Shown here in pieces: positions 14,062 through 62,973 of a stretch of DNA of 64,000 nucleotides. The notes beneath the pieces are model-generated. The model was not told the DNA's origin and searched no databases. It worked only from the letters and a program-made list of their open reading frames with translations. The stretch's first letter is position 1. Each line of letters starts with the position of its first letter. The position numbers were made by a program, and so were the translations under genes. The stretch is from Casimicrobium huifangae (GTDB taxonomy: Bacteria > Pseudomonadota > Gammaproteobacteria > Burkholderiales > Casimicrobiaceae), in assembly GCF_009746125.1 (NCBI RefSeq), contig NZ_CP041352.1:2030436-2094435 (forward strand), in the 5' to 3' direction.

Positions 14062-14179
14062 CAGCTTTTCGATGAAAGCCTTATCGGACAGGGGCTCGGA
14101 CGGTGAATCGCACGTTACTCGACTAGGCCTCATTCCGCCGCCTGAGCCCATAGCCAATGCGGGTTAGCGATAAAAGTCG
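14062..14179. repeat. 118-bp imperfect palindrome, copy 1
   Basis: One of six intergenic elements of identical length. It begins CAGCTTTTCGATGAAAGC and ends GCGATAAAAGTCG; GGGC at element columns 31-34 faces GCCC at 85-88, and CGAC sits at the exact centre. It lies between livF and the dienelactone-hydrolase-like gene, both on the plus strand, and contains no plausible gene. Other copies are at 18232, 29163, 39550, 50398 and 62856. Confidence 0.85.
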
Positions 14180-14261
14180 TTAGCCACGGCGATTGTTTCC
14201 CCGCTACCGCAGTAGCGGTTGACGCGCTACAGTGAACGCTTCAATCAAGCGGAGTAGCGCC

Positions 14262-15176
14262 ATGAGCCAGCAGCAACAGTCCCAGCCGGTGACCCAGATC
14301 GAGATTGACCAGCGCGTCTACGATCTCTACGACGAGTATTGCCACGGCAAGATTGACCGTCGCGAATACCTCAAACGCGCCTCGGCGCTCGCTGCGCTGG
14401 GCATCCCCGCGCTGGCGATGGCGACCTCGCTGCTGCCGCAATACGCCAAGGCGCAGACCATCTCGTTCACCGATCCGCGTATCAAGGCAAGCTACGTGAC
14501 CTACCCGTCACCCGGCGGCAACGGCGACGGCAAGGACATGCGCGGCTACCTCGTGCAGCCCACCGGCAACGGCCCGTTCCCCGCGGTGCTCATCATCCAC
14601 GAAAATCGTGGCCTGAACCCCTACATCGAGGACGTCGCGCGCCGCGCCGCCGCCGCCGGCTACCTGGCGCTGGCGCCGGATGGGCTGGCACCGCTCGGCG
14701 GCTATCCCGGCAATGACGACGATGGCCGCACGCTGCAGGCCAAGCTCGATCAGGCCAAGCTGCGCACCGACATGCTCAACGGCGCCAAATGGCTCAAGGC
14801 GCACAAGCTCTCCACCGGCAAGCTCGGCGTCACCGGCTTCTGCTGGGGCGGCGGCACCAGCAACTTCCTCGCCACCGCGATGGGCAGCGACCTGCAGGCA
14901 TCAGCGCCGTACTACGGCGCCGCAGCGGCGACGGCCGACGTAGGCAAGATCAAGGCCGCCATGCTGATCCACTTTGCCGCCAAGGACGACGGCATCAACG
15001 GCATGTGGCCGGCGTACGAAGCGGCGCTAAAGGCAGCCGGCACCCGTTACGAGGCGCACATCTATCCCGACACACAGCACGGCTTCCACAACAACTCGAC
15101 GCCGCGCTACAACGAGGCCGCCGCCAAATTGTCGTGGGATCGCACCATCGAGCACTTCAAGAAGCATCTGGCCTGA
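14262..15176 (+). CDS. dienelactone hydrolase family protein, probably Tat-exported
   Basis: A 304-residue alpha/beta hydrolase of the DLH family. The Cys nucleophile is in GFCWGGG near residue 202, followed by the Asp in AAKDDGIN near residue 251 and the His in TQHGFHNN near residue 281, giving the Cys-Asp-His triad. Ahead of the domain is RREYLK (residues 33-38) followed by a hydrophobic stretch ending YAKAQ, which looks like a twin-arginine signal and suggests periplasmic location. ATG 14262 has GGAG 8 bases upstream; an in-frame GTG at 14232 is less likely. The physiological ester or lactone is unknown; no chlorocatechol genes are nearby. Confidence 0.85.
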   Translation: MSQQQQSQPVTQIEIDQRVYDLYDEYCHGKIDRREYLKRASALAALGIPALAMATSLLPQYAKAQTISFTDPRIKASYVTYPSPGGNGDGKDMRGYLVQPTGNGPFPAVLIIHENRGLNPYIEDVARRAAAAGYLALAPDGLAPLGGYPGNDDDGRTLQAKLDQAKLRTDMLNGAKWLKAHKLSTGKLGVTGFCWGGGTSNFLATAMGSDLQASAPYYGAAAATADVGKIKAAMLIHFAAKDDGINGMWPAYEAALKAAGTRYEAHIYPDTQHGFHNNSTPRYNEAAAKLSWDRTIEHFKKHLA

Positions 15177-15277
15177 CCCAGGCGGCGCCCACCGGTGATC
15201 GATGGCGCCGCCGCTATCGCCGTGCGCGCTGACCGGGTGGCGCAGCGCACGCTCGGTCAAACCACAACGCAGCGAAG

Positions 15278-18133
15278 CTACTGAAACGCCGACGGCGAGT
15301 AAGGGAAGTTCGTCCCGCAGAATTGGTTGAGCCGTTTACGCACCGGGTTCCACGCCGGTATGCCGGTGCCCGCGATGATGGCGTCTGCGCCAAAGCCCAG
15401 CATCGCGCGCACGAGGATCAGCCCTTCCAGTGGGGCCGAGAGCGTGTTGTCGCCACTCATATCGAGATTGCAGGCGATGTTGGCGTTGCCCGTGGAGCTG
15501 CGGAATGGGTAGGCGGTGCCGCTGATGATGAGTGTCGTTTCGGCGGTGCCGCCGGGGTTGGCACTGGTGTGGCGTACGGCGATGTAGTCGCCCGACAGAA
15601 AATCCCACGATCCGGAGAACCAGCCGGTGGAAAAACACGGTGATGCGCAGCCCACGTTGGGCGTCACGCATACGCCGGGCTGTGTAGCGATGCAAAACTC
15701 GCTGCCGACCGCGCCGGTCACGTAGGCCGTTTGCTGATTGTTCGGCGGCGTGGGCGTGATCGTCAGTCGAACTTCGTTGGACGTGCGCACACTGTTCGGT
15801 GGCACGTTGCTTTGATGAATGAAATTGAACGGATTCGGAATACGGTTCACGGCTGTCAGATCGGTGGAAAGGCGGCTCACGAAACCGTCACCGCCGCCGC
15901 CAAAGGTCCCTTGCTGCGCGTTAACGGTCGGGAAACCTCCGAAATTATTAAATCCCGCCAGATACACGCTGCCGCCATCGGGCGCCACGGCGAACGCGAT
16001 CGGGGAGTCATACCCCGTCCCGCCCAGATAGGTGCCTGCGCGGCGCGCGGTCAGCGCGGCGTTCAGACGCACGATGAAGGCGTCGTAGCTCCCGCCGCCG
16101 TAGGTGCTCTGATAGCCGTCGGCGACCAGCGCGGCAGGCAGGCCACCGTCGGTATCGCCCAGCACGAAGATTTCTCCAGTCTGTGGATGAATGCCGACCC
16201 GGCACGAGGAAGAACAGTCGTTTCCCGTGTCACCGAGATACGTGGATTGCAGAATGGCCGTGAGATCGGGGCTCAAGCGGCTGACAAAACCATCGTTTAA
16301 ACCACCGCCAAAGGTCGACTGTGCACCGCCCGCGCGTTGCGGCAGATCGCTCGAGAACGTGCTTCCGGCGACGATAACCTCTCCGCTGACGGGGTGCACG
16401 GCAACGCTATGCGCGCTGTCGCCGCCGGAACCGCCCAGATAGGTCGCACGCATCAGGGCCGAAAGGTCCTGTTTGAGTCGCGCGACGAAAGCGTCCTGAG
16501 AGCCGCCGATCACTGCCTGCGCGGCGCCCGCGAGCATGGCGGCGGGCAGTCCGCCGCCGGTCAATCCCGCGACAAAGATATCCCCCGAGCGCGGATCGAT
16601 CGCCAATGCATTGCCGATTTCGGTGTTGGTGCCCCCGATAAAGGTGTAGCGCGTAGTCGTTGTGGCCGGCCCAGACAGATCGGCAGGCAGGCGTGCAGCG
16701 AAGGCGTCAAAAAGGCCGCCAAACGAAGTTTGCGATCCCACTAGCGTGCCCGGCAGCACAGCGGAACTGGTTGAACCGACGACATGAACGAAACCCGTGT
16801 GAGGATGCACAGCGATGGCGTTAATTTCCTCGCCCAGCCCGGCACCGCCAAAAAACGTTGCTTTCGTCAACGTGCGCAAATCTGCACTCAGCTGCGCGAC
16901 AAAGCCGTCTTGAGCATTCGCGTCGCCAGCGCCCGCGTGAGTGGGCTGAAGCGCGTTGGTCGTGCTGCCTGCCGGGAACGTCGACGTGCCCGCGACTTGT
17001 CCCGCTACATACACCGCACCACTGCCCGGATGAAACGCGATGGCGTTACAGCGAACGTCACCGTTGCCGAGATAGGTGGACTGCAACAACTGTTGCAGGT
17101 CAGCGCTGTAGCGACTGACGACGCAGGACGTGCCTGTAGCGCTCGTCTGCGCGCCGCTCGCCGTCTGCGGGAAGCCTGGCGAATTGGTAATCCCGGCGAC
17201 ATACACCTGGCCCGAATGCGGATGCACCGCGATGGCATTGACTTGATCGTAGCCGGTGCCGCCGAGATAGGTCGAAGCGAGGAGCGGATCGATCACGAGT
17301 GGGCGGCTGGCGTCATATTCACCCAGCGTGAAGCCGTAGCGCTGCTGCGAAGCATCAAGCGCGTAGGCGACGGGCACCGGTGTGCGCTCGCCCGACGCTG
17401 TTTCCTGAAACGCAATTGGCGCGGTGAAGGCGACCGGGCCGTTGCCGGTGTGGGCGATGAGTTCGCCTTTGTCGTTGATTTCGAGCTTTTGTGCGCCATC
17501 GAGTTTGATGCGGATTTGCTTCGGGTCGTGCTGCGCCGCGACGGTGAAGATTTTTTCGACGTTCGCACCCGCGTTGTTGCGCGTCGCGCGCAGTTGCACG
17601 TTGACGCCGGGGTAGATGTCGCCGAGGTTGACGCGCTGATAGCCAGAGGTGCTGTGCGCGGACGCCTTCGCATGCGTGTGGGTGAAGTCGCTGGTGCGGG
17701 TAGCGCCGGGTTGATCGCCGACCGGCGCCGTGATGATCCGTTTGCCAGTGGCCGAGACGAAGGATTCGCTGAGAGCCCAGCCGCCGGTGGCAGTTTTGCG
17801 GGCCGGGGGCAAGCTGTAGACGAGCTGACCGTCGGTGGTCACAAACAGCGTACCGGCAAAGGTCGGAGCGGCAAACGCGGCGCGCGCGTCCCACTGGCCG
17901 GCGTTGGCTACGAAAGGCACCGCCGAAAGGGATGCTTTGGACAGCATGCCCGCTTGATCGGGAGCCAGCACGGCCTGCGCCGGGTGGCTGAGCAGCATCA
18001 GAGACGTCGCCAATGTGAGTCCGGCGAGGCTGGCGGAGCGCATCTGGCGGCGCAGGCTGGGGTGATACTGTGGGCCGCGAAAAAACGACTGGCCAAATGG
18101 ACGCCCGCCCGCGGTGGCGCTGCTGTGCTGCAT
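15278..18133 (-). CDS. large secreted SBBP-repeat (beta-propeller) protein with dockerin-like C-terminus
   Basis: A 951-residue exported protein. A signal segment ends HPAQA near residue 54. Residues ~60-285 form the conserved domain that usually precedes SBBP repeats (VANAGQWDARAAF, DIYPGVNVQLRA). Residues ~285-757 hold about ten SBBP beta-propeller repeats of 45-55 residues with the pattern STYLGG...AIAVHP.SGEVYVAG. A beta-sandwich-like part follows, and near residue 890 the segment CNLDMSGDNTLSAPLEG is an EF-hand/dockerin-like calcium motif, then a RAMLGF helix and a conserved NQFCGTNF end. The start is the ATG behind GAGGGGA; an upstream in-frame ATG at 18259 would fall inside a repeat element. 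Function unknown; surface adhesion or binding is plausible. Confidence 0.85.
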   Translation of the reverse strand: MQHSSATAGGRPFGQSFFRGPQYHPSLRRQMRSASLAGLTLATSLMLLSHPAQAVLAPDQAGMLSKASLSAVPFVANAGQWDARAAFAAPTFAGTLFVTTDGQLVYSLPPARKTATGGWALSESFVSATGKRIITAPVGDQPGATRTSDFTHTHAKASAHSTSGYQRVNLGDIYPGVNVQLRATRNNAGANVEKIFTVAAQHDPKQIRIKLDGAQKLEINDKGELIAHTGNGPVAFTAPIAFQETASGERTPVPVAYALDASQQRYGFTLGEYDASRPLVIDPLLASTYLGGTGYDQVNAIAVHPHSGQVYVAGITNSPGFPQTASGAQTSATGTSCVVSRYSADLQQLLQSTYLGNGDVRCNAIAFHPGSGAVYVAGQVAGTSTFPAGSTTNALQPTHAGAGDANAQDGFVAQLSADLRTLTKATFFGGAGLGEEINAIAVHPHTGFVHVVGSTSSAVLPGTLVGSQTSFGGLFDAFAARLPADLSGPATTTTRYTFIGGTNTEIGNALAIDPRSGDIFVAGLTGGGLPAAMLAGAAQAVIGGSQDAFVARLKQDLSALMRATYLGGSGGDSAHSVAVHPVSGEVIVAGSTFSSDLPQRAGGAQSTFGGGLNDGFVSRLSPDLTAILQSTYLGDTGNDCSSSCRVGIHPQTGEIFVLGDTDGGLPAALVADGYQSTYGGGSYDAFIVRLNAALTARRAGTYLGGTGYDSPIAFAVAPDGGSVYLAGFNNFGGFPTVNAQQGTFGGGGDGFVSRLSTDLTAVNRIPNPFNFIHQSNVPPNSVRTSNEVRLTITPTPPNNQQTAYVTGAVGSEFCIATQPGVCVTPNVGCASPCFSTGWFSGSWDFLSGDYIAVRHTSANPGGTAETTLIISGTAYPFRSSTGNANIACNLDMSGDNTLSAPLEGLILVRAMLGFGADAIIAGTGIPAWNPVRKRLNQFCGTNFPYSPSAFQ

Positions 18134-18231
18134 TGATTTCCCCTCAGAAGCGGCTGCTGCGCCTGTTTGTTGTTCGCACCGTATTCGATAGACACGCCCC
18201 GGCATAGCGAAATGCACCAATTGCACCCTGT

Positions 18232-18349
18232 CAGCTTTATGCGGGAATGACCATTGCATAAGGGCTTGAGGCGCTAAAGCGGTGAAAGTCGACCCGCCAT
18301 CAAAAGTGCGCTAAAGCCCACAGCCACTGTGCATTCTTGACGAAAGTTA
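18232..18349. repeat. 118-bp imperfect palindrome, copy 2
   Basis: Begins CAGCTTTATGCGGGAATG and ends GACGAAAGTTA, with AAGGGCTTGA at columns 29-38, TAAAGCCCA facing it and AAAGTCGACC at the centre. It lies between the divergently transcribed SBBP gene and tldD, so it cannot be a terminator for either, and promoters of both would have to sit within or beside it. Confidence 0.85.
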
Positions 18350-18435
18350 ATCGTTGTAGTGGTCGGCTGCCGACAGCGAATGGGCCGGCAACGCCTGTGC
18401 TACCCTCACCGCGTTTTTCCTCCGACGACTGTTTG

Positions 18436-19872
18436 ATGTCTGCCTCTCTCGCTACCGCGCAATCGCTGCTGCTCGCCCCCGCCAACCTCTCGCTCGACCA
18501 GCTCTCCGCCACGCTTGGCGGCTTGAGCAAACGCGGCGTGGAGTTCGCCGATCTTTACTTTGAGCATCACAAGTCCGAGTCCTGGTCGCTGGAAGAGGGC
18601 ATCGTCAAAAGCGGCAGTTTTTCGATTGAATCCGGGGTGGGCGTGCGCGCGATCACCGGCGAGCAGACGGCGTTCGCCTACTCTGGCGACATCGGTCTGG
18701 CGTCCATCACCGAAGCCGCCAATACGGTTGCGGCGATCGGCCGCGCCGGGCAGAGCGCTTCGGTCGCAGTGAATGGCAAGACGGTGCATCCGGCGCTCTA
18801 CACGGCTGCCGATCCGCTGGCCTCAATCAGCGACGACGCCAAGATCGCCCTGCTGCGCGAAGCCGAGCGCATCGCCCGCGCCCGTGACCCGCGCGTAACG
18901 CAGGTGATGGTGAACCTGGCCTGCGAGCATGTGGTGATGCTGGTGATGCGTACGGATGGTGTGATCGCTGCCGATGTGCGGCCGTTGTGCCGCCTCAACG
19001 TGTCCGCCATAGTCGAAAGCAATGGAAAGCGTGAGCAGGGCCGTTCTGGTGGAGGCGGTCGTTACGGCTTCGAGCACTTCGATAGCGAATTCATCACCAA
19101 GCGCGCTCACGAAGCGGTGGACATGGCGATCCTGAACCTTGATGCCCGTCCCGCCCCAGCGGGTGTGATGCCGGTCGTCTGCGGGCCCGGCTGGCCCGGC
19201 GTGCTGCTGCACGAAGCGATTGGTCACGGTCTCGAAGGCGACTTCAACCGCAAGGGCTCCTCGGCGTTCACTGGTCGCATCGGCGAACGTGTCGCCGCGC
19301 CCGGCGTGACGGTACTGGACGACGGCACCCTCAAGGACCGTCGCGGCTCGCTCACCGTGGACGACGAAGGCACGCCGACGCACGCCACGGTGCTGATCGA
19401 GGACGGCATCCTCAAGGGGTACATGCAGGACACCATGAATGCCCGCCTGATGGGCGTCGCGCCCACCGGCAATGGCCGCCGCGAGAGCTACGCGCACCTG
19501 CCAATGCCGCGCATGACCAACACCTACATGCTGGGCGGCCAGCATGATCCGCAGGAAATCATCGCCAGCGTCGAAAACGGCATCTACGCCGTCAACTTCG
19601 GCGGCGGGCAGGTGGACATCACCAGCGGCAAGTTCGTCTTCACCATGGACGAAGCCTGGAAGATCGAAAACGGCAAGCTGATGTACCCGATCAAGGGCGC
19701 CACGCTGATCGGCAACGGCCCCGATGCCCTCACCCGCGTTACCATGATCGGCAACGACATGGCGCTCGACGAAGGCATCGGCGTCTGTGGCAAGGAAGGC
19801 CAGAGCGTGCCGGTCGGGATCGGGCAGCCGACGCTGCGTATTGAAGGCCTGACGGTGGGCGGCACGGCGTAG
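18436..19872 (+). CDS. tldD: metalloprotease TldD
   Basis: A 478-residue protein, against 481 in E. coli. The zinc motif HEAIGH is at residues 259-264, followed by GLEGDFNRKGSSAFTGRIGE and a later TSGKFVFTMDEAWKIENGK stretch, all highly conserved in TldD. With TldE it forms a heterodimeric protease that trims leader peptides and helps degrade CcdA-type antitoxins. TldE is not in this window. The start is ATG 18436, directly after a pyrimidine-rich leader; an upstream in-frame ATG at 18337 adds 33 unrelated residues. Confidence 0.95.
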   Translation: MSASLATAQSLLLAPANLSLDQLSATLGGLSKRGVEFADLYFEHHKSESWSLEEGIVKSGSFSIESGVGVRAITGEQTAFAYSGDIGLASITEAANTVAAIGRAGQSASVAVNGKTVHPALYTAADPLASISDDAKIALLREAERIARARDPRVTQVMVNLACEHVVMLVMRTDGVIAADVRPLCRLNVSAIVESNGKREQGRSGGGGRYGFEHFDSEFITKRAHEAVDMAILNLDARPAPAGVMPVVCGPGWPGVLLHEAIGHGLEGDFNRKGSSAFTGRIGERVAAPGVTVLDDGTLKDRRGSLTVDDEGTPTHATVLIEDGILKGYMQDTMNARLMGVAPTGNGRRESYAHLPMPRMTNTYMLGGQHDPQEIIASVENGIYAVNFGGGQVDITSGKFVFTMDEAWKIENGKLMYPIKGATLIGNGPDALTRVTMIGNDMALDEGIGVCGKEGQSVPVGIGQPTLRIEGLTVGGTA

Positions 19873-19916
19873 CCGCCCCACCGCCAATTTCGTCGCGAAC
19901 GGTACAGTACCGGGAA

Positions 19917-21062
19917 ATGAGCGACGCCAACCAAACCCCGCGCTTTCGCCGCACGAAGCGTGTCGCAGTGGTACTGGCTGGGTTGCTGATTCTCGTTGTC
20001 GCACTGCTTGTATTGCGCTGGCAGCTCGCGACCCAGCGCATTGATCAGGTTGCAACAAAGGCCGCAACATTGGCTGCTACCCGGAAGGTGGCCGTTTCGG
20101 GTGACGATGCACGCCGCGCTGGCGCGCCCGCCCGCCTTGGTGGCGCCAGTGAGGCAGCGGGCGTTGCTGCTATGCATATGTCGAGCGTCGACGCTTATCG
20201 CGAGCGAAGTGCTGATGACCGCGCTGCATTGCCTCACATCCGCGGTGCAATGGACGGTGCTGCATTGGCGCGGCTGCAGACGCTGGCGGATGCGGGCAAC
20301 GCCCGAGCAGCCTGCATCCTGAGTGCTCAGGCAACCAAATGCAACTTCCTGCCTGGCGTCGTTCGCGACAGCATTACCCAGCTGTCTGCCGGCGTGGCCT
20401 TGCATCACGAGCGCGGCAGTATTCCATCGCCCGAAATGTTGCGCGCACTGGAGCACTCTCGCACCAGTGCATCCGCCCTTGCCCGCGAGTGTGCGGGGGC
20501 GCCGGCGATGCCGCCGGACGCCGCGTGGCGGTATCTGCTGCAATCGGCGTTGCTGGGCTATGAGCCGGCGATGCTGCTATTTTCGCAATGGCCGCCGGTT
20601 GACTTTGGTGAACCCAATACCTCTGTCGATGCGGTCATCGCCTACCTTCGCTATTCGGGTTCGCTGACCGAGGCGCTTGCGCAACGCGGCGATCTCAACG
20701 CGATCACGTCGCTGACATGGGAGTACGGCCACCACGGTCCGAACGTACTTCAGGCGCTGGGCCTGCGTGCGCTGCCGGCAGATCCGACTCGTGCGCTCAT
20801 GTATGCCTACGTACGCGAGGGGGTGATGCTTCGCCGCGAGGCCGAGCGTCCCGGATCGACCGCGGCATATGGCCAGGCACATGCCGCAGTGGAGCGCGTT
20901 CTTCCCGCCGTCGACGAAGCGGGCCGGCAGTGGGCGCGGCAGATGGCGGATCAAATGCTGGCGACATTCACACCAGACGCGCTTCGCCCGTCGGCCCCCG
21001 CATCGGAACAGGCGGAAGAGCCCACGCTGTGGCAGCAACTCGAGGACATATGCAGGGAGTAA
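19917..21062 (+). CDS. membrane-anchored protein of unknown function
   Basis: A 381-residue protein. A basic N-terminus (residues 1-17) is followed by one transmembrane helix (about 18-38) and a long alpha-helical, Ala-rich periplasmic domain with several Cys (CILSAQATKC, REC, EDIC at the C-terminus). Segments such as ALARLQTLADAGNARAACIL and DLNAITSLTWEYG are reminiscent of Sel1/TPR-type helical repeats, but I cannot assign a family. It starts 44 bases after tldD on the same strand. A protein of similar design but little obvious sequence identity is encoded at 59575-60657. Confidence 0.7.
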   Translation: MSDANQTPRFRRTKRVAVVLAGLLILVVALLVLRWQLATQRIDQVATKAATLAATRKVAVSGDDARRAGAPARLGGASEAAGVAAMHMSSVDAYRERSADDRAALPHIRGAMDGAALARLQTLADAGNARAACILSAQATKCNFLPGVVRDSITQLSAGVALHHERGSIPSPEMLRALEHSRTSASALARECAGAPAMPPDAAWRYLLQSALLGYEPAMLLFSQWPPVDFGEPNTSVDAVIAYLRYSGSLTEALAQRGDLNAITSLTWEYGHHGPNVLQALGLRALPADPTRALMYAYVREGVMLRREAERPGSTAAYGQAHAAVERVLPAVDEAGRQWARQMADQMLATFTPDALRPSAPASEQAEEPTLWQQLEDICRE

Positions 21063-21181
21063 AACGCTACCGGCGTCGGCGTTGTGTGGCGATACACGAC
21101 GGCGGTCGCGCGTTGATGGCATGATTGCGGCCGCAAATTCGTCTACTTGTCCAGCTCATTGCATTAATCCGGAGTTGATCC

Positions 21182-21886: not shown

Positions 21887-21913
21887 TCGCGACGCGATCC
21901 GTGCTGCGGCGGC

Positions 21914-22330: not shown

Positions 22331-22332
22331 GA

Positions 22333-24574: not shown

Positions 24575-24594
24575 CGCGCAACCGTAAACCCGTA

Positions 24595-24719
24595 GCCCGT
24601 ATGCTCGCATCCGGGCCAACTGATACGAACTGGCCTATCTCGCCACCCAGTCAGTGCCTTCGTCGTGGCGGTTGAATGGCAGAAGGAAAGGAACCCGGAT
24701 GCGAGCATCCGGGCTACGG
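24595..24719. repeat. inverted-repeat element (GTAGCCCGGATGCTCGCATCCGG type)
   Basis: Arms at about 24590-24615 and 24696-24719 are near-perfect inverted copies of GTAGCCCG-ATGCTCGCATCCGG, about 80 bases apart. Similar Arg-rich-looking hairpin elements are common between genes in many proteobacteria. The right arm ends a few bases before the ribosome binding site of the next small gene. A second element built the same way is at 25543-25652, and the two bracket two unknown genes. Confidence 0.7.
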
Positions 24720-25117: not shown

Positions 25118-25537
25118 ATGAAGAGGTCGGTCAAACTTGTTCCACTCTGTCTGGCTGTTTTGGCTGGTCTGCATGGCTGCTCCATGACGATTAATGCGCG
25201 TATATATGACTTGGGCGGCTCCGGCGGCGTAGCAAATGCTGAATTCAAGTGGACGGGCAGCGGTACAGGTCCTTTGACGGGGTCATTGCCGGATGGAGAA
25301 TCGTTCCGGGGGGAATACACCACTGTGGCATCAGGAATCACCGGATGGGGGACGACGTTTAGCAGCGTCTACACCGTCAATCTCAGTAACGATTTGCAAC
25401 GCGGTTCCGCCATAGCGACAGGCAACCGTGGCACGGTCATTGATTGCGAATACGTTGTTCGGTCCGGTTCAGCGACTGGCTATGGCGTCTGTAGGGACAA
25501 CAAGAAACGCACATACCGCCTGATGTTTGGCGGCTAG
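25118..25537 (+). CDS. small putative lipoprotein
   Basis: A 139-residue protein with a lipoprotein-type signal: MKRSVK, a hydrophobic stretch and a lipobox ending LHGC with Cys 21. The mature part (residues 22-139) is Gly/Thr/Ser-rich and predicted beta, with two Cys (DCEY, GVCRD) that could form a disulfide. It resembles small outer-membrane lipoproteins but has no family I can name. GGGGGACTT precedes the ATG. It is between two repeat elements and has lower GC than its surroundings. Confidence 0.65.
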   Translation: MKRSVKLVPLCLAVLAGLHGCSMTINARIYDLGGSGGVANAEFKWTGSGTGPLTGSLPDGESFRGEYTTVASGITGWGTTFSSVYTVNLSNDLQRGSAIATGNRGTVIDCEYVVRSGSATGYGVCRDNKKRTYRLMFGG

Positions 25538-25542
25538 TAACG

Positions 25543-25652
25543 TAGCCCGCAGAAGCGAAGCGCGTCCGGGTTCCCGTTAGGTCTACCGAAAGCTCTCTTC
25601 GACACGGTTCGATTGACAAATGCCTTGACGCGCTTCGCTCCTCAAGGCTACT
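25543..25652. repeat. inverted-repeat element (GTAGCC...GAAGCGCGTC type)
   Basis: Left arm CGTAGCCCGCAGAAGCGAAG with CGCGTCC (25543-25570) is mirrored by GACGCGCTTCGCTCCTCAAG with GCTAC (25627-25651). It is built like the element at 24595-24719 (GTAGCC tips, GC-rich arms) but with a different arm sequence. The -35 box of the toxin-antitoxin operon begins right at its right end. Confidence 0.7.
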
Positions 25653-25680
25653 TGACTGTGCGTACGCAAAAGCGTACGCT
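25652..25680 (+). promoter_or_regulatory. promoter and palindromic operator of the yefM-yoeB operon
   Basis: TTGACT (25652-25657) and TACGCT (25675-25680) are 17 bases apart, as sigma70 boxes should be. The spacer and -10 hold GCGTACGC-AAAA-GCGTACGC, an inverted repeat of two identical palindromic half sites at 25660-25679. YefM-type antitoxins bind GTAC-centred palindromes at their own promoter, so autoregulation is expected. The predicted transcription start, 6-7 bases after the -10, coincides with the antitoxin ATG. Confidence 0.7.
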
Positions 25681-28511: not shown

Positions 28512-29162
28512 ATGGAACTCGCCGCCTACCTGAAATCCTTCCTCGGCCTGCTGGCCATTGTGGACCCGTTCATTGCGGTGCCGATGTTCCTTGCACTCAC
28601 GCCGACTGCCACCGCGCAGGATCGCATGCGCATTGCGCGCATTGCGGCGATTGCAGTGTTCTGTGTGCTGTCGGTGGGTTTGCTCGGCGGCGGGCCGGTG
28701 CTGGATTTCTTCGGTATTTCGCTCTCGGCCTTCAAAGTGGCGGGCGCACTGTTGCTGCTGCTGTCAGCGGTCGATAGCTTCAACGCGGCGCCGGGCCGGC
28801 AGCGGCAGACGCCGGAGGAGGAGGCCGAGGCGCACAGCAAGCATGCGGTGGCGGTGGTGCCGATCGCGACGCCGCTGCTGGCAGGGCCGGGCGCCATTTC
28901 AATGGTGATCGTGTTTGGCCAGTCGCATCCCGGCGTGAAGACGCTGGGGCAGGTGGCTCACCTTGGCATGCTGCTGCTGGTGATCGCGGTCGTCGCGCTG
29001 ATCACCTGGCTCACGCTCAGGGCGGCGCAGCGCGTGTCCGTGGTGCTCGGCATCACAGGCATGAACGTCGCCACCCGCGTCGGCGGTTTGATCACTGCGG
29101 CGCTGGCGATCGAGATTCTGGCATCCGGGCTGACCGGGCTGTTTCCGGGGTTGAAGCAGTAG
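28512..29162 (+). CDS. MarC-family integral membrane protein
   Basis: A 216-residue protein with six membrane segments. The start LKSFLGLLAIVDPFIAVPMFLALT and the central PIATPLLAGPGAISMVIVF are the two half-repeats typical of MarC/UPF0056 proteins. Despite the name, MarC has no proven role in multiple antibiotic resistance, and its function is unknown. A charged cytoplasmic loop (RQRQTPEEEAEAHSKH) separates the halves. Its stop codon directly abuts a 118-bp palindromic repeat. Confidence 0.9.
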   Translation: MELAAYLKSFLGLLAIVDPFIAVPMFLALTPTATAQDRMRIARIAAIAVFCVLSVGLLGGGPVLDFFGISLSAFKVAGALLLLLSAVDSFNAAPGRQRQTPEEEAEAHSKHAVAVVPIATPLLAGPGAISMVIVFGQSHPGVKTLGQVAHLGMLLLVIAVVALITWLTLRAAQRVSVVLGITGMNVATRVGGLITAALAIEILASGLTGLFPGLKQ

Positions 29163-29280
29163 CAGCTTTTTGCTGAAAGCAGCACGGGACAAGGGCTTGA
29201 CGGCAGGTTTTGGCAAAAACCGACTCTGCAATGAACTTGGCGGCCAGCCCTGTTTGGATAAGCCTTACAGCAAAAAGCTG
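29163..29280. repeat. 118-bp imperfect palindrome, copy 3
   Basis: Begins at the base after the marC stop codon. Its ends are a perfect 13-base inverted repeat, CAGCTTTTTGCTG and CAGCAAAAAGCTG, the best-kept termini of the six copies. AAGGGCTTGA faces CCAGCCCTG, and CCGACT lies at the centre. It separates marC from the converging TRAP transporter genes; the ~120 bases between it and dctM show no gene. Confidence 0.9.
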
Positions 29281-39549: not shown

Positions 39550-39667
39550 CAGTTTTGCGCTGTGAGCCTTATTGCAATTGGGCTTAAGGTAATTTTTGGC
39601 AGATAGTCGGCTTTCCAGAAAATAGGTCTGCAGCCCACAATTCAATGGAGTTGAGGCCAAAAAGCTG
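39550..39667. repeat. 118-bp imperfect palindrome, copy 4
   Basis: Begins CAGTTTTGCGCTGTGAGC and ends GGCCAAAAAGCTG. TTGGGCTTAA faces GCAGCCCA (shifted by one base relative to other copies), with ATAGTCGGCT at the centre. It lies between the convergent esterase and pectinesterase genes. Confidence 0.85.
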
Positions 39668-50397: not shown

Positions 50398-50515
50398 TGC
50401 CTTTTTTGTTGCAATGGCTTTCGCATTGGGCGCCAGGGGCGAAAGTGCGTAAAGTCGATAAACAGGCAAACAGGCTCGCAAGCCCAATTCGTATGCGCCT
50501 TTCAGTAAAAAGCTA
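50398..50515. repeat. 118-bp imperfect palindrome, copy 5
   Basis: Begins TGCCTTTTTTGTTGCAATGG and ends TCAGTAAAAAGCTA. TTGGGCGCCA faces GCAAGCCCAATT, and TAAAGTCGAT lies at the centre. It is between kdgD and the LacI-type regulator gene and overlaps no supported gene. Confidence 0.85.
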
Positions 50516-53768: not shown

Positions 53769-54872
<1,104 letters not shown>

Positions 54873-54888
54873 GCGCCTGCCGCAAGTC

Positions 54889-54925
54889 CCCCCTGTACGG
54901 CAGGGGAGACGTCTGCGCAGCAGAC
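54889..54925. repeat. hairpin repeat (CCCCTG/CAGGGG and GTCTG/CAGAC)
   Basis: CCCCTG-TACGG-CAGGGG is followed by GTCTG-CGCAG-CAGAC. The wording matches a common Burkholderiales intergenic element; partial copies continue to about 55016 (CCCTCCGCCCCTTCGGGG). It separates the lactonase gene from the first Bug gene. Confidence 0.6.
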
Positions 54926-55046
54926 AGAGGGGTTGGTCGCTCAAGACTGGCGTTCTTTCGCACCGCGCGACCCCTCCGCCCCTTCGGGGCACCTCCTTTG
55001 CCTTGCAGGGGAGGCTGTTGGATTACTTTTGGTTGATAGCAGCATC

Positions 55047-56024: not shown

Positions 56025-56067
56025 GTCGAACCCGATGCCAACATCCATTTCGAGTTTTCCCACAGCC

Positions 56068-57087: not shown

Positions 57088-57148
57088 CTTTCGCTCACGA
57101 TGACGACGGAAATGAACGCGACCCTCATCAAAAAATTGAGCCTGCAAT

Positions 57149-57868
57149 ATGTCTGAACTAAGCCCCACCACCTACGCCCATTTGAAAAAAGTCAGCGTCG
57201 CCACGCTTTGCACGCAACTGTTCAAGCGAGGCTTCCGCAATGTCTTCATTCAGGACATTGCCCGTCTCACTGATCCGTCTGACGGCAACCTCGTCGGCCC
57301 GGCCTACACCATGCGCAACATCCCCGCGCGCGAGGATCTCGACCAGATCAGCGCTTTCGACAATCCCGATCACCCGCAACGCAAGGGGGTGGAGAGCGTG
57401 CCGCCGGGGCATGTGCTGGTGGTTGATACCCGTCGCGAAACACGCGTCGCGTCGGGCGGGGAAATCCTCACCACGCGTCTCATGGTGCGCGGTGCAGCGG
57501 GACTGGTGTCAGACGGCCCGGTGCGCGACAGCGGCCGTATCGCCGAGATGGATTTCCCGGTGTATTGCGCGGGGGGCAGCGCGCCGCTGAACCTGATCCA
57601 TCATCACACGGTGGACCTCAACGTGCCGATCGGTTGCGGTGGCGTGGCCGTGTACCCCGGCGACATCATCGTTGGCGACGAAGAGGGCGTGGTGGTAATT
57701 CCTGCACACCTGGCCGATGAAGTCGCCGCCGATGCCGCGGCGCAGGAGGTGATGGAAGTATTCATTCTTGAGCGCGTGCAGAACGGCGCCAAGCTGCCCG
57801 GAACCTATCCGCCCAACGCCGAAACGAAGGCGGCATTTGAGGTGTGGAAGAAGGAACGAGGACTTTGA
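57149..57868 (+). CDS. RraA-like/HMG aldolase family protein
   Basis: A 239-residue protein of the RraA/DlpA superfamily. GEILTTRLMVRGAAGLVSDGPVRDSGRI near residue 110 carries the conserved Gly-Asp/Arg stretch that binds the metal and oxalo/keto acid in class II HMG/CHA aldolases, and PVYCAGGSAPLN follows. The family contains the RNase E regulator RraA, but this length and context favour a keto-acid aldolase, perhaps splitting 2-keto-3-deoxypentonate or a related acid. It starts 61 bases after the second Bug gene. Confidence 0.82.
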   Translation: MSELSPTTYAHLKKVSVATLCTQLFKRGFRNVFIQDIARLTDPSDGNLVGPAYTMRNIPAREDLDQISAFDNPDHPQRKGVESVPPGHVLVVDTRRETRVASGGEILTTRLMVRGAAGLVSDGPVRDSGRIAEMDFPVYCAGGSAPLNLIHHHTVDLNVPIGCGGVAVYPGDIIVGDEEGVVVIPAHLADEVAADAAAQEVMEVFILERVQNGAKLPGTYPPNAETKAAFEVWKKERGL

Positions 57869-57878
57869 GAGTTTGTTC

Positions 57879-58075
57879 CCCTCTCCCTTGAGGGGAGAGG
57901 GGGGGGAGAGGGTGACGGTGGCTCGATCTTTTGAGATCGCACTCCAGGCTGTCAACCCCTCTCCCTGACCCTGCCTTGCAGGCCGCACTCGCGCAAGCAT
58001 GCGCTCGCCGTTCCAGCGGCGGCTCGCATGCGAGCCGAAACCCCGCTTCCACCCAACAAGGGGAGAGGGAACCCG
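57879..58075. repeat. C/G-rich dispersed repeat (CCTCTCCC-TTGA-GGGAGAGG)
   Basis: A perfect hairpin CCTCTCCC-TTGA-GGGGAGAGG at 57880-57900 begins an element whose end words CCCAACAAGGGGAGAGG appear at 58051-58070. The 228-base gap before the aldehyde dehydrogenase gene holds nothing else recognisable. It is related to the G-rich repeat at 4565-4610. Confidence 0.55.
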
Positions 58076-58096
58076 ATACAGCTACAAGGAACCAAC

Positions 58097-59545
58097 ATGA
58101 CACAGCACAACAATTTCATCAACGGCGAATGGGTCGCAGGCGCGAGCTATACGCCCAACATCAACCCGTCCAATCTGAGTGACGTGATCGGCGAGTACGC
58201 GCAGGCCGATGCCGCGCAAGTTGAGACCGCCGTGGCCGCAGCAAAAGCCGCCTTTCCGGCGTGGTCCACCGGCGGCGTGCAGGCGCGCAGCGATGCGCTC
58301 GACAAAATCGGCAACGAAATCCTTGCGCGGCGTGAGGAGCTCGGCACACTGCTGTCGCGCGAAGAGGGCAAGACCAAAGCCGAAGGCATCGGCGAGGCAG
58401 CTCGTGCGGGCTACATCTTCAAGTTTTTCGCGGGCGAATGTCTGCGCCTGGCGGGTGAAACGATCCCGTCGGTGCGACCCAACATTGGTGTTGAAGTGAC
58501 GCGCGAGCCGATCGGCGTCGTTGGCCTCATCACACCGTGGAATTTCCCGATTGCCATTCCGTCGTGGAAGATCGCACCGGCGCTGGCGTATGGCAACTGC
58601 GTCGTCATCAAGCCGGCCGATCTGGTGCCCGGCTGCGCCTGGGCGATTGCCGACATCATTTCGCGCAGCGGCATTCCGGCCGGTGTGTTCAATCTGGTCA
58701 TGGGTCGTGGCTCGGTGGTGGGCGAGGGCATCATCCAGCACCGTGATGTGAACGCGATCAGCTTCACCGGTTCGGTGGGTGTGGGCAGCCGCATTGCGGC
58801 GGCAGCGGCACAGAAGCTCAAGAAAGTGCAGCTCGAAATGGGCGGCAAGAATCCGCAGATCGTGCTCGATGATGCCGATCTCAAGACGGCGGTTGAACTC
58901 TGCGTGCAGTCCGCGTTTTTCTCGACCGGCCAGCGCTGCACGGCGTCGAGCCGTTTGATCGTGACTGAAGGCATCTATCCGAAGTTCATCGAGGCGATGA
59001 AGGCGCGCATGGCCACGCTCAAGGTAGATGACGCGCTGAAGGCCGGCACCGACATCGGCCCGGTGTCGAGCAGGGACCAGCTCGAGCAGGACCAGCAGTA
59101 CGTGCAGATCGGCAAGGACGAGGGAGCGACGCTCGCGTGCGGCGGTGACCTGATCGCAACGAGCAGCGACGGCAACAAGGGCTTCTTCATGGCGCCAGCG
59201 CTGTTCTCGGAAAGCGCGGCCAGCATGCGCATCAACAAGGAAGAAATCTTCGGCCCGGTCGCCAGCGTCATCAAGGTGAAGAACTACGAAGAAGCGCTGG
59301 CCACCGCCAACGACACCGAGTTCGGCCTGTCCGCCGGTATTGCCACCACCTCGCTGAAGCACGCGACACACTTCAAACGCCACTCGCAGGCAGGCATGGT
59401 GATGGTCAATCTGCCGACGGCCGGTGTCGACTATCACGTCCCGTTCGGTGGCCGCAAAGGCTCAAGCTACGGCTCACGCGAGCAGGGCAAATACGCGGCG
59501 GAATTCTTCACCACGGTGAAGACGGCGTACACCTACGCGGGATAG
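58097..59545 (+). CDS. aldehyde dehydrogenase, probably ketoglutarate-semialdehyde dehydrogenase
   Basis: A 482-residue NAD(P)-dependent ALDH. TPWNFPIAIPSWKIAPALAYGN is near residue 148, the general-base Glu 247 is in LEMGGKNPQIV, and the nucleophile Cys 281 in STGQRCTASSR. The group NFPIAIPSWK and the C-terminal VPFGGRKGSSYGSREQG are typical of the 2,5-dioxopentanoate dehydrogenases found next to arabinonate and glucarate genes. It would oxidise the KdgD product to 2-oxoglutarate. ATG 58097 follows AAGGA; the frame is open upstream through the repeat but not conserved. Confidence 0.9.
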   Translation: MTQHNNFINGEWVAGASYTPNINPSNLSDVIGEYAQADAAQVETAVAAAKAAFPAWSTGGVQARSDALDKIGNEILARREELGTLLSREEGKTKAEGIGEAARAGYIFKFFAGECLRLAGETIPSVRPNIGVEVTREPIGVVGLITPWNFPIAIPSWKIAPALAYGNCVVIKPADLVPGCAWAIADIISRSGIPAGVFNLVMGRGSVVGEGIIQHRDVNAISFTGSVGVGSRIAAAAAQKLKKVQLEMGGKNPQIVLDDADLKTAVELCVQSAFFSTGQRCTASSRLIVTEGIYPKFIEAMKARMATLKVDDALKAGTDIGPVSSRDQLEQDQQYVQIGKDEGATLACGGDLIATSSDGNKGFFMAPALFSESAASMRINKEEIFGPVASVIKVKNYEEALATANDTEFGLSAGIATTSLKHATHFKRHSQAGMVMVNLPTAGVDYHVPFGGRKGSSYGSREQGKYAAEFFTTVKTAYTYAG

Positions 59546-59574
59546 CCGCGCCGGCGACGTGCCTTGACGATGCG

Positions 59575-60657
59575 CTACGGCTTCCTGCGGCGAAGCCCCA
59601 GCGCTGCCGGGTCGCCACCGTTGATTGCACGCAAATACTGCTCGACCTGTTTGTCGAGCAGCGCAGGGTTGAGGCCGTCGCGCGTGAGCGCAGCGCGCAC
59701 GGCGGCACCAAGATCGTCACCGGTGCACGCACCGAACTTGAGGCAAGCTTCCCGTGCCCACAGGCTGTCCTGCCCGCAATACGAACCAAGCTGGCACAAC
59801 GCAAGTTGCCAGGCGATCGGTGTTACCGCGTCGGCGTAGTAGCGCGGGTCTGTCATTCCCTGCGCCGATATATTGGCGGTGAGGTTGGCCAGCAGCGGTT
59901 GCACAACTTGTCCCAGCAGAGCAAGCGTGCCAGCGTCTCGGTCACGCAATGCACGGCCAATGAGGTCGTACTGCTCGGGTGTCAAGGCACCCAGATCCAG
60001 TGGTTGTGTCACCAGGTTCATCAGCTCGGGGTAAAGCGCCCCTCGAGCGATCAGCCGTTGCAGCGCTGTGTTGGCGTCGGCCTTGGCACTGTCGAGGCTG
60101 AAGTCTTTGCACGCCTGAACCAAGACTCGGTTGCTCTCCTGCATGCGGGTGCGTTCGCTCGCCTCGCGCAAGGGGTCAGGTGGCTCCTTGCCGGTGGAAG
60201 CACGCAGACGCACTGGTACCCAGGCACCGGCGTTCGCCTGCACCTTGGCGGCTGCGCTGGCGTTGCGCAGGCAAAAGTCGATCATCTCCATTGCAAATGC
60301 ATTGGCCGCCACGTCGTCGGCGTTGGCCGCGTCGCGAATCGAAACGGCGAGCGCTGTGCTGGCCTGCAATTCGGCGATACGCACCGTGCGGCGTGGCTGC
60401 GAGTCAGACGCCACCGGCGCTGCGCTGGCGTGCAACTGTCCCGATAGCGCCCCCGGTGCATTGGGGTCAATGGCGCGGATTGTTGATGTGCCTGCCGCAG
60501 CCGTACCCGCAGCGTTGGCCGAGGAGCCGGCGACACCGGCGCTACCCGCTGCGGCTACCGTGCGGCCGTCCGCAGCGGTACGGCCGTTCCACCCATACAA
60601 GGCAACGAGCGCCAGGGCGGCGAGCAGGAGCAGAACGGGGATGGGGCGCAGACGCAT
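59575..60657 (-). CDS. membrane-anchored protein of unknown function
   Basis: A 360-residue protein. A basic tip (MRLR) and a hydrophobic helix (residues ~5-22) anchor a periplasmic part that is Ala/Gly-rich at first (residues 25-90) and then largely helical, with Cys residues in DFCLRN, QACKDF, ALCQLGSYCG and REACLKFGACTGDD. Repeated helix-Cys pairs suggest a disulfide-stabilised helical fold. The ATG follows GAAGG. It resembles the product of 19917-21062 in layout but I cannot show that they are homologous. No family recognised. Confidence 0.7.
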   Translation of the reverse strand: MRLRPIPVLLLLAALALVALYGWNGRTAADGRTVAAAGSAGVAGSSANAAGTAAAGTSTIRAIDPNAPGALSGQLHASAAPVASDSQPRRTVRIAELQASTALAVSIRDAANADDVAANAFAMEMIDFCLRNASAAAKVQANAGAWVPVRLRASTGKEPPDPLREASERTRMQESNRVLVQACKDFSLDSAKADANTALQRLIARGALYPELMNLVTQPLDLGALTPEQYDLIGRALRDRDAGTLALLGQVVQPLLANLTANISAQGMTDPRYYADAVTPIAWQLALCQLGSYCGQDSLWAREACLKFGACTGDDLGAAVRAALTRDGLNPALLDKQVEQYLRAINGGDPAALGLRRRKP

Positions 60658-60892
60658 ACCTTCACGTGGGCGAACGATCACGACGGATGGAGTTTAGCGG
60701 CCACACCGGCGACTTATCGCCGCGAAACATCTCCGCACGCAGCTCGTCGCATGATGAATTGCTTGCTGATGACAGTTTGACGGCCAGGATTCCGTCTGAA
60801 CCATGACCGGCCAACGCTTGTTGGCGGGCCATCGAATCCACCCAACCTACCGCGCTGCCCCGGCAGCGATTCCCATGCGCTGTACCCTTCTC

Positions 60893-62821
60893 ATGAAACG
60901 CCTGTCCAGGCTGGCGGTTGCCACCATGATGTTGCTTGCCGGCCTGGCATCAACGGCACCGGCCCTGGCCGCCGAACGCTTTGTGTCCACCACCGGCAGT
61001 GACAGCACGGGCAACGGGTCGCGCGCTGCGCCGTATCGCACGCTCTCGCGGGTGCTGTCGCCATCGGCGGGCATCGTTCGCGCGGGCGATGTGGTCACCC
61101 TGCTGGCTACAGCGTCCAACCCGGTGTTCAACGAGTGTGATGTGCGCTTGCGGGTGCCGCTGACGATCCGCTCGGACGCGGCGCGACGGGCGCATATTCA
61201 TTGCGACATACAGACGCCAGACAGCGTGACCATCCAGATTGACCCGGACGCGTCGGGTTCGCGGCTGTCGAACCTTGAAATCAGTGGTGGCCGCTACTAC
61301 GGCATCTTTCTGCAGACCGACTGGGATGTGCAGGGCAATCCCGGTGGACGCGGCGCGTCGAAGATCGTGATCGAGGACGTCTACGTGCATGACACCGGCC
61401 GCGACGCCATCAAGATCACGCCGAAGAGCGACTATGTGACCATTCGCCGCGCCGAGATTGCCCGCAGCGGTGCCGGCTACGCGCCGGGCACGCCGCTGGA
61501 CGACAAGAACGCAGAAGGCATCGATAACGTCAACGGATCGTTCATGATCGTGGAAGACAGCTACATCCACGATACCGCGACCACCGGCGTTTACTTCAAG
61601 GGCGGCGCAACCGATGTGATCGTGCAACGCAATCGCATCGAAAACGTCGGCATTGCTGGGGTGCTGGTGGGCTTTGACACCAGCCCGGAATATTTCGATA
61701 CGGTGCGCAACCCGCAGTATTACGAGGCGATCCGCGGCATCGTGCGCAACAACGTGATCCGCAATGCCAACTACGCTGGCATCGGTCTCTATGCCGCGCA
61801 GGACAGCGTGGTTGCCAATAACACCGTGATCAATACCGGCAATCTTGGTCACGCAGCACTTTACTTCGGCGTTACTTTCCAGGACTACGAGCCCGCTGCC
61901 GGGCGACCGGCCAACCGTGGGGTGGTGCTGCGCAACAACCTTGTCCAGCAGCAGGGCGGCGACTGCATCCGCATCCGCTATTCGGACGAACTGGGTGGCT
62001 TGTCCGGGTTGGCTGGCACCGTGGACAGCGATTTCAATGTGTTTCATGCTGCATCCGGCGCCTGCGTGTTCGCCGACGCGCGGCCGGGCAGCACGCTCGC
62101 TGGCAGTGGGCTCGCCGCGTGGCGCACGGCCATGCAGGCCGACGGCGCCAGCACCGAGGTCGCAGTGGCGCTGGACAGCACTGGCCGGCCACTGAGCGGC
62201 GGGGCCACCGAAGGGCGAGGCGCGCCGCTGCCGGCCGTCGTTGATGATCTGCAGCGGGTGGTGCGGGCATCGCCACCGGATATTGGCGCGCATCAGGCGA
62301 CGGCGGCTGCCGGTGTTCGCGTAATGTCGGAGTTCCGTCATGGCGAGCTTGACTACTACTTCATCACCGCGCGCGACGACGAGAAGCAACTGCTCGACGC
62401 CGTCAGCGGCTGGCAACGCACCGGGGCGGAGTTCAAGGTGCATGCCAGCGTGCAGACCGGGCTGCATGGCATTGCCCGCTACTACTTTGATCAGGTGGCG
62501 CGCGGCGGCCAGCGCGGGTCGCACTTCTACACGGCCATCGCTGCCGAGAAAGACGCGCTCGCTGCGCTGAACCCGGGCAACGCACGGGCACCGCGAGTGC
62601 CGTTTGCTGAAGGAGAGGATGGCTATGTACCTTTACCAATCGTCAACGGCAGCGTGGCAAGCTGCGGCGCGGGCTACTGGCCGATCTACCGGGCGTTTCG
62701 CGGGCCGGCGCGGTTTGCTGATGATGCCAACCACCGGTTCACCACTGACGCCCGTCTGCACGAGCGGCTGGTCGCCGCCGGCTGGGATGGTGAGGGCGTG
62801 AAGCTCTGCGCGTTGCGCTGA
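60893..62821 (+). CDS. secreted right-handed beta-helix protein with C-terminal DUF5648-like domain
   Basis: A 642-residue exported protein. Signal peptide ends APALAAE (about residue 28). Residues ~30-470 form a parallel beta-helix: ERFVSTTGSDSTGNGSRAAPYRTL at the start is typical of pectate-lyase-like and PL9/DUF1565 proteins, followed by coil repeats such as GVYFKGGATDVIVQRNRIENVG and VANNTVINTGN. Residues ~490-642 resemble DUF5648 (EFRHGELDYYFITARDDEKQLLD), often fused to secreted enzymes. The helix fold and the neighbouring pectin locus make a polysaccharide role plausible, but I see no proven catalytic set. In-frame ATGs at 60803 and 60875 are less likely starts. Confidence 0.82.
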   Translation: MKRLSRLAVATMMLLAGLASTAPALAAERFVSTTGSDSTGNGSRAAPYRTLSRVLSPSAGIVRAGDVVTLLATASNPVFNECDVRLRVPLTIRSDAARRAHIHCDIQTPDSVTIQIDPDASGSRLSNLEISGGRYYGIFLQTDWDVQGNPGGRGASKIVIEDVYVHDTGRDAIKITPKSDYVTIRRAEIARSGAGYAPGTPLDDKNAEGIDNVNGSFMIVEDSYIHDTATTGVYFKGGATDVIVQRNRIENVGIAGVLVGFDTSPEYFDTVRNPQYYEAIRGIVRNNVIRNANYAGIGLYAAQDSVVANNTVINTGNLGHAALYFGVTFQDYEPAAGRPANRGVVLRNNLVQQQGGDCIRIRYSDELGGLSGLAGTVDSDFNVFHAASGACVFADARPGSTLAGSGLAAWRTAMQADGASTEVAVALDSTGRPLSGGATEGRGAPLPAVVDDLQRVVRASPPDIGAHQATAAAGVRVMSEFRHGELDYYFITARDDEKQLLDAVSGWQRTGAEFKVHASVQTGLHGIARYYFDQVARGGQRGSHFYTAIAAEKDALAALNPGNARAPRVPFAEGEDGYVPLPIVNGSVASCGAGYWPIYRAFRGPARFADDANHRFTTDARLHERLVAAGWDGEGVKLCALR

Positions 62822-62855
62822 TGCCTGCGGGGGTGCGAGCAACACCTCGAAGTCA

Positions 62856-62973
62856 GTGACTTTTTCGTAGAAGCCCCACTGCATAGGGCGCCGCACCGCA
62901 ATTGACGGATAGTCGACTTCAGTTGTTTTTGCGCTCTGAGCCCAGTTCGATAGCGGCTTTCACCGAAAAGCTG
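62856..62973. repeat. 118-bp imperfect palindrome, copy 6
   Basis: Begins GTGACTTTTTCGTAGAAGCC and ends TTCACCGAAAAGCTG. TAGGGCGCCG faces TGAGCCCAG, and ATAGTCGACTT is the centre. It lies between the convergent beta-helix gene and hemA. Its left terminus is the most diverged of the six. Confidence 0.82.

Follow-up and report, generated by a model that had tools for sequence, protein, structure and literature searches.

The stretch analyzed here (the window) covers 64,000 nucleotides of the Casimicrobium huifangae genome (G000, a single contig of 4,465,898 bp) at positions 2,030,436 to 2,094,435, and it holds six intergenic palindromes that belong to a family of hundreds of copies. An initial annotation of the window had placed them at 14062 to 14179 (copy 1), 18232 to 18349 (copy 2), 29163 to 29280 (copy 3), 39550 to 39667 (copy 4), 50398 to 50515 (copy 5), and 62856 to 62973 (copy 6), and all six lie there and can be aligned with one another. 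All are dyad elements and are given without a strand. Copies 1 and 5 lie between co-directional genes, copy 2 between divergent genes, and copies 3, 4, and 6 in convergent gaps, in agreement with the earlier count of two co-directional, one divergent, and three convergent contexts. Copy 3 has the top profile score among the window copies and begins at the base right after the stop codon of the open reading frame (ORF) at 28512 to 29162; copy 6 lies 3′ of a 5-aminolevulinate synthase (ALAS) gene. The overall picture of a dispersed intergenic family of rigid length and divergent copies, for which terminators alone are an insufficient explanation, was sustained.

When each window copy was scored with a profile built from the other five, the copies reached 38.5 to 67.9 bits. 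The best non-element window position scored −20.7 to −32.5 bits across the six leave-one-out tests, and every copy exceeded any non-element position by at least 71 bits. A profile search of the 64-kb window at an E value of ≤1e-5 found no further copy beyond the six. The copies are imperfect palindromes in that 50 to 70 of 118 positions per copy show dyad symmetry (∼31 expected from base composition), but palindromicity alone is not diagnostic. Because non-element window positions reach equal dyad scores, the copies are singled out by their shared blocks. The length, first described as exactly 118 bp, is nearly fixed, but arms measure 58 or 59 bp and collected copies 115 to 119 bp. Copies 5 and 6 therefore each need a one-base gap in the left arm in a block alignment.

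The inference of a family was confirmed at genome scale. We found 66 elements in 824 kb of G000 (the window, a 400-kb systematic sample, and a 400-kb contiguous sample, with overlaps counted once), which is 80 per Mb and extrapolates to ∼358, or about 360, genome-wide; reversed-sequence controls gave zero elements. We used 57 of the 66 as full length for the main measures (the sampled set). A collected set of 71 copies is biased, having been gathered partly by similarity to the copy at 29163, by model score, and by exact pattern; the 57/66-element systematic and contiguous sample repeats its main measures.

Each element consists of two 58- or 59-bp arms around AAAGTCGACTTT. Among the sampled copies, 86 of 114 arms were 59 bp long and 28 were 58 bp, and the collected copies measured 115 (1 copy), 116 (7), 117 (24), 118 (38), and 119 bp (1). 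Two bases beyond each end are also conserved (A in 63%, then T in 42% or A in 32%), and therefore the unit is nearer 122 bp. The consensus of the arm found in G000 (type A) from the 71 copies is CAGCTTTTtgctGAAA.cCcCATT..At.tGGGCTtaa.gg...Aatt.gccaAAAGTC, with an information content of about 40 bits per arm in the sampled set and 46 bits in the biased 71-copy set. In the sampled set, columns C4, T5 to T7, A16, G31, G32, and C59 are conserved at 91 to 99%; the linkers beside them are near the random level, and in many of their columns no base exceeds 45%. In copy 3, the outer block CAGCTTTTTGCTG lies at 29163 to 29175 with its mirror at 29268 to 29280, and the left-arm middle module of type A (arm positions ∼13 to 37, consensus GAAA.cCcCATT..At.tGGGCTtaa) lies at 29175 to 29199; this module is the part that differs in a relative, G012. 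The inner A/T block of copy 3 (arm positions 45 to 48) lies at 29207 to 29210, and the center of symmetry (arm positions 54 to 59 and their mirror) at 29216 to 29227. At the consensus level, the middle module forms a dyad of its own (GCCC..GGGC). Neighboring columns 46 and 47 are mutually dependent, as would be expected if a protein reads A-tracts. An exact ends-and-center pattern with five gap lengths (46 to 50) on each side of GTCGAC matched the genome 77 times, and the same pattern with 31 gap lengths on each side matched 80 times, with 0 matches for the backward control in either case; the near identity of the two counts shows that the spacing within the element is rigid.

None of 40 sampled elements lies inside a gene, and 4 overlap a predicted gene end by 2 to 21 bp. 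Among gaps of at least 118 bp, elements are present in 14 of the 24 convergent ones, 15 of the 85 between co-directional genes, and 9 of the 38 between divergent genes (convergent 14/24 versus other gaps 24/123; Fisher P = 2e-4), two of the 40 being at stretch ends and not assigned to a gap class. In contiguous sequence of G000 and G012, the occupancy of gaps of at least 100 bp was 15/38 convergent, 30/159 co-directional, and 8/68 divergent (convergent versus other, 38/227; P = 0.003). The elements also keep apart from one another. In contiguous sequence of G000 (464 kb) and G012 (330 kb), the 51 spacings had a coefficient of variation of 0.63, versus 0.925 (standard deviation, 0.12) in 2,000 gap-constrained simulations (P = 0.001). 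Only 1 of the 51 spacings was below 3 kb, versus 8.9 expected, and 0 of 2,000 simulations were as low. The median spacing was 10.85 kb, and G000 alone gave P = 0.012 both for the coefficient of variation and for the count of short spacings. The neighboring genes to which a family search gave a name (uvrB at a distance of one gene, ALAS, and a pectinesterase) have no obvious theme, an informal impression that argues against a tie to gene-specific regulation.

The preference for convergent gaps and the places soon after stop codons would suit hairpins in the transcript that terminate transcription in both directions or stabilize 3′ ends, and folding energies point the same way. Real copies folded at −36.05 kcal/mol versus −32.29 kcal/mol for column-permuted copies, and the folding z score was −2.48 for the 71 real copies versus −1.87 for one column-permuted set (−2.98 for 27 copies of type B, described below). 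Part of this difference is dinucleotide content, and the rest comes without a specific helix. The paired columns speak against such hairpins. Arms were about as similar within a copy as between copies (0.520 versus 0.515 in the 71-copy set and 0.477 versus 0.470 in the sampled set), and neither arm-arm nor within-arm pair stacks showed excess complementarity over permuted controls. The top stack reached a z score of 3.0, versus a null maximum with a mean of 2.9 and values up to 3.4 in 20 permutations; a second stack test gave 2.4 versus 2.6 in controls, with lone near-neighbor pairs up to 4.1. Compensatory changes were thus not found in paired columns. In addition, 9 of the 40 sampled elements lie between divergent genes, and the window has 0 Rfam matches at the gathering threshold, consistent with the initial view that the family is apparently undescribed. 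We consider a transcribed hairpin very improbable, and we rejected RNA or cruciform structure as the main constraint on the grounds that neither arm-arm nor local stacks covary. Since no pair covaries, we read the element as a double strand. The proposed selection on an RNA or single-strand structure was therefore not supported, the modestly lower folding energy notwithstanding, and the proposed selection on a DNA feature was supported.

Pairwise identity among copies is about 49 to 53%. The top identity was 0.636 among 1,596 pairs of the 57 sampled copies and 0.695 among 2,485 pairs of the 71 collected copies; draws with independent columns gave a mean maximum of 0.664 and reached 0.695 in 9 of 200 cases. 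Because these comparisons cover between about a sixth and a fifth of the family, there may be a few young pairs among the other copies. No target-site duplication of 3, 4, 5, 6, 8, or 9 bp flanked any of the 71 copies, and 2-bp flanking duplications numbered 8 versus 9.4 expected. On the sampled copies, the family is not recently mobile. The Correia, RUP, and NEMIS families are miniature inverted-repeat transposable elements (MITEs), short, palindromic, intergenic, and geneless; unlike these, the present family has no target-site duplication, and no young copies were seen.

The suggestion of old non-autonomous mobile copies, taken in its plain sense, was therefore not well supported. Columns conserved at 91 to 99% stand beside near-random linkers, which makes plain decay after a burst unlikely, and target-site duplications are absent. 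An origin from a transposon as such stays the main rival. Each element would then join two transposase-binding ends head to head, as a MITE derived from a transposon whose ends are long and built of several blocks; the recognizing protein would still act on the copies and shift its specificity between species, and transposition immunity would space the copies. Terminal inverted repeats, a criterion for MITEs, are present, the whole element being a dyad of two arms, and the mutual avoidance of elements could be transposition immunity. One review classes ERIC, CIR, and similar intergenic palindromes as MITEs (PMC10969869). This origin sits poorly with the 0/71 target-site duplications and with the lack of sister copies among the 1,596 sampled pairs. 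A dead family should also decay evenly and not keep some columns nearly invariant, and no autonomous copy was noticed, although no systematic search was made for one. We regard the transposon origin as a real possibility, short of probable.

We compared the elements of G012 with those of G000. The ends, inner block, center, and 59-bp arms are the same, and the 24-bp middle module is different. The arm consensus of this type B is CAGCTTTTtggctc.AaCGACcgcc.g.cGGTCgTT.caGcc..ATTTt....aAAGTC (46.7 bits; 27 full copies), with CGACC..GGTCG in place of the middle GCCC..GGGC dyad. Type B was found in 28 of 29 G012 elements and type A in 68 of 69 G000 records, a count that may include one element twice through overlapping stretches. 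In a tree of uvrB and ALAS, G012 groups with G000, and G011, which has type A, joins next (94% support each). Both types occur at the same locus in G000 and G012 in five cases (29163, 62856, L012, L014, and L007), three of which come from loci chosen for holding an element. At L007, a half element in G000 corresponds to a full type B element in G012; four G000 loci (L007, L008, L023, and L028, from position 1501 in each) have a good left arm to the center and a poor or missing right arm. On a separate branch, G007 has type B arms in one of two elements examined. The B copies are as diverse as the A copies (top identity, 0.653 among 351 G012 pairs), and 14 of 59 type B columns have no base above 45%; the type B elements are therefore not wholesale copies of a single recent founder. 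Each genome also has one element of the other type, L146:3691 (type B in G000) and L277:2471 (type A in G012, on a 15-kb contig that could be contamination), for which horizontal transfer or, for G012, contamination may account. The G012 assembly and most others of the genus consist of many contigs.

The same tips with a different middle block would be expected from related transposases, and a transposon origin explains the module difference and the fast turnover of linkers (below) more easily than does selection on a docking site. The presence of types A and B at the same loci in sister species stands against it.

The module difference also bears on gyrase. Strong gyrase sites, that is, wrapping and cleavage sites that relieve supercoils between convergent genes as BIME-2 repeats do in Escherichia coli, would fit the size (116 to 122 bp), symmetry, and convergent preference of the elements. 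The E. coli gyrase motif is reported to span ∼130 bp symmetric about the cleavage site, with a degenerate sequence and a 10.75-bp G+C periodicity in the arms, and BIME-2 repeats to be enriched for gyrase cleavage (PMC6379681). The family is like the motif and BIME-2 in size and symmetry, and like BIME-2 it is intergenic; it differs in that the motif is degenerate and periodic, whereas the family has about 40 bits per arm. A periodicity of 10.75 bp was weak and inconsistent in type A (permutation P = 0.14 for the whole element and 0.026 for the left arm, with the strongest arm period at 7.5) and in type B (P = 0.03 for the whole element, and 0.16 at a period of 10.5). A species-wide module difference between sister species would not be expected of gyrase sites, and no such difference is known among them. 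Gyrase is therefore an unlikely explanation.

A further possibility is drive or gene conversion, in which an enzyme would act at the center and the sites would spread or homogenize by ectopic copying without host benefit, in the manner of uptake sequences or homing sites. It would account for a consensus that differs in concert between species though the copies are not recent, and for the fast change of orthologous linkers. Shared exact runs of at least 18 columns numbered 13 versus 0.4 expected, but 5 of the 8 runs listed join copies that were both BLAST collected by similarity to one copy, and just one joins systematically sampled copies. The arms of one element are no closer than other arms, and the 14 type B columns lack a majority founder base. 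Drive seems doubtful to us, about as doubtful as gyrase. In a separate observation at L165, the neighboring elements e4289621 and e4295727, separated by 6 kb, are identical over 23 consecutive columns of one arm, which may be a conversion tract. The gyrase, RNA, and drive explanations are all less likely than either docking sites or a transposon origin.

We searched relatives with model R1 at an E value of ≤1e-6, using stricter filters, scoring at most 61 candidates per genome, and counting strands apart. Matches were found in 14 of 17 genomes of the genus, including G000, and in 0 of 43 other genomes of the same family or order. The A and B profiles together had 0 matches in sequence from G017 (160 kb) and G019 (218 kb, one stretch having N runs). 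In a search of 399 genomes of the order with the ends-and-center pattern, 8 genomes outside the genus had one or two matches, and the backward control matched 19. Among 114 distinct pattern loci scored on viral contigs (87 stretches from a first pattern and 8 and 20 from two further patterns, one of the 8 being the same locus again), one was genuine: L329:8843-8958, a type A element on a 12.5-kb phage contig (IMGVR_UViG_3300049488_000082). It adjoins a phage ATP-dependent DNA ligase gene, and a DUF1376 primosomal protein is encoded on the same contig. This phage copy also favors a transposon origin. The plasmid and phage collections had no match to the copy at 29163. The known range is thus one genus plus one phage contig.

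Several loci are shared between species. After the gene at 28512 to 29162, an element lies directly past the stop codon in G001 and G015, ∼24 bp on in G012, and ∼110 bp on in G013; no alignment of the gene next to uvrB was obtained for G004 and G006, and G011, G005, and G003 have contig ends close to uvrB. An element lies beside ALAS in 4 of 15 relatives (G011, G005, G013, and G012, the last with a type B element). The window copies at 14062, 50398, and 62856 and element e691579 have G011 counterparts with alignable flanks, and at the copy 2 locus in G011 the neighboring gene is missing and there is no element. An element in the same gap of two species is by itself weak evidence of a shared locus, given that 14 of 24 convergent gaps hold one in any case; the precise placement right behind the stop codon and the G011 flanks that can be aligned are stronger evidence. 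Most element-free intergenic stretches still align above the shuffled level. In the comparison with relatives, no orthologous locus was both cleanly empty and flanked on the two sides, and the comparison yielded no insertion boundaries.

Taken together, these results lead us to favor, with a probability of roughly 0.45, the explanation that the elements are docking sites of a fast-evolving symmetric complex that organizes or insulates the chromosome and that they are kept in place by selection. A large DNA-binding complex with two-fold symmetry would dock on each element in its double-stranded form, and the ∼360 sites would serve the chromosome rather than the adjacent gene, most likely as anchors or insulators between topological domains at the median spacing of about 11 kb. 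The complex may read the 59-bp arm block by block (outer block, swappable middle, inner A/T block, and shared center), with the middle block, itself a dyad, probably bound by one protein dimer. If the specificity of the partner for the middle block shifted, the sites of that lineage would follow. Selection in place on a double-stranded site would explain the rigid spacing, the contrast between columns, the lack of young copies, the shared loci, and the dispersion, and a change in partner specificity would account for the module difference. We infer the partner protein, its dimeric reading, site-by-site selection, and the anchoring or insulating role from these patterns. A bolder form, in which a lattice of ∼80-bit anchor sites ∼11 kb apart is read by a fast-evolving modular complex and is retuned in place when one module swaps, is tentative and rather unlikely, and by analogy such a lattice might, no more probably, be a bacterial counterpart of co-evolving centromere or insulator systems. 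If the elements are anchors, the genus would provide domain boundaries that are defined by sequence and vary naturally among close relatives (type A, type B, and scarce), and the origin of bacterial topological domains would become directly testable. If they derive from a transposon, they would be a repeat that keeps conserved blocks though its linkers are unrelated, with an unexplained species-wide exchange of a module. Either way, they do not fit the usual view that dispersed palindromic repeats are copies that moved recently and are decaying.

A number of observations weigh against docking sites held by selection. The ∼80 bits per site far exceed the need for marking 360 places, and selection would have to be strong for hundreds of sites to be retuned on a single branch. 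R1 matches were few or none in several genomes of the genus (G002, 0; G014, 0; G016, 0; G009, 2; G010, 4; G006, 5), and G002 had weak A-profile matches alone (best E value, 5e-4) in 439 kb; the function would therefore be dispensable there unless other types exist. Homologues of the ORF at 28512 to 29162 lack an A-profile match in G010, G014, G002, G008, and G016, as does the ALAS locus in the other 11 relatives, to which the A profile alone was applied. Linkers were hardly more alike between orthologues than between paralogues (0.37 versus 0.335 for four G011 pairs and 0.342 versus 0.284 for five G012 pairs, one G015 orthologous pair being left out), though 0.645 of 4-fold sites are identical between G000 and G011 (14 genes). 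The elements therefore change faster than vertical drift predicts, and this scant vertical signal favors a transposon origin. The scatter of pairwise identities exceeds that expected for independent columns (standard deviation, 0.044 versus 0.036; 0 of 200 permutations). Partial or half elements made up 9 of 80 collected and 9 of 66 sampled elements, some perhaps merely cut at stretch ends. One pair in the systematic sample, outside the spacing test, lies 1.1 kb apart, and the gap and spacing tests rest on our own simple gene caller. The difference in folding energy belongs here as well.

We compared the family with other known repeats. The initial likening to ERIC held for the outline and for nothing beyond it. 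ERIC elements are likewise long imperfect palindromes of similar length dispersed between genes (PMC10969869). The present family is found in another taxon, is evenly dispersed, and shows nearly invariant columns and a species-wide module difference; no young copies were seen in it. It is not known to share the ERIC sequence. The REP/BIME repeats and the REPINs that go with RAYT proteins are described as hundreds of extragenic two-armed palindromes with conserved arms and a less conserved spacer, the type varying between genomes along with a protein, and REPINs as hairpins in which compensatory changes are common (PMC3116915). No compensatory changes were detected in the present family. G000 has a single weak hit to PF01797, at 4154873 to 4155211, with the nearest element among the matches listed at 4150790 to 4150905, ∼4 kb off, and G008 has elements and no PF01797 match. 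We rejected a RAYT/REPIN system: no hairpin covaries, the RAYT-family hit is not flanked by any of the copies listed, and element-bearing G008 has none. The CIR elements of Caulobacter are, according to a review, strictly intergenic repeats associated with CcrM sites (PMC10969869). GANTC is depleted in the family (14 found in 71 copies versus 32.2 expected from shuffles), and a CcrM/CIR relationship was rejected on that basis. Integration host factor (IHF) sites were rejected too, with 0 consensus matches versus 0.5 expected in the 71 copies. Among the matches listed, titles and abstract openings in the openly licensed literature hold no account of this palindrome family.

Some other features of the window and the genome were observed along the way. 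Two further large inverted repeats, which differ in sequence from the family, came up in a dyad scan of the window at ∼24593 to 24715 and ∼25535 to 25657. A different inverted-repeat element with CCCCGCGAAGGCGGGGACCC-like ends occurs in G000 and G002 (L152 near 4755, L226 near 8891, and L238 near 14462). The ORF at 15278 to 18259 encodes 993 amino acids without an NCBIfam match and has divergent relatives in G012, G010, G006, and G016, some with internal stops. Betaproteobacteria usually use the C5 heme pathway; the gene at 63019 to 63969, in a betaproteobacterium, encodes an ALAS that matches TIGR01821 above the curated cutoff.

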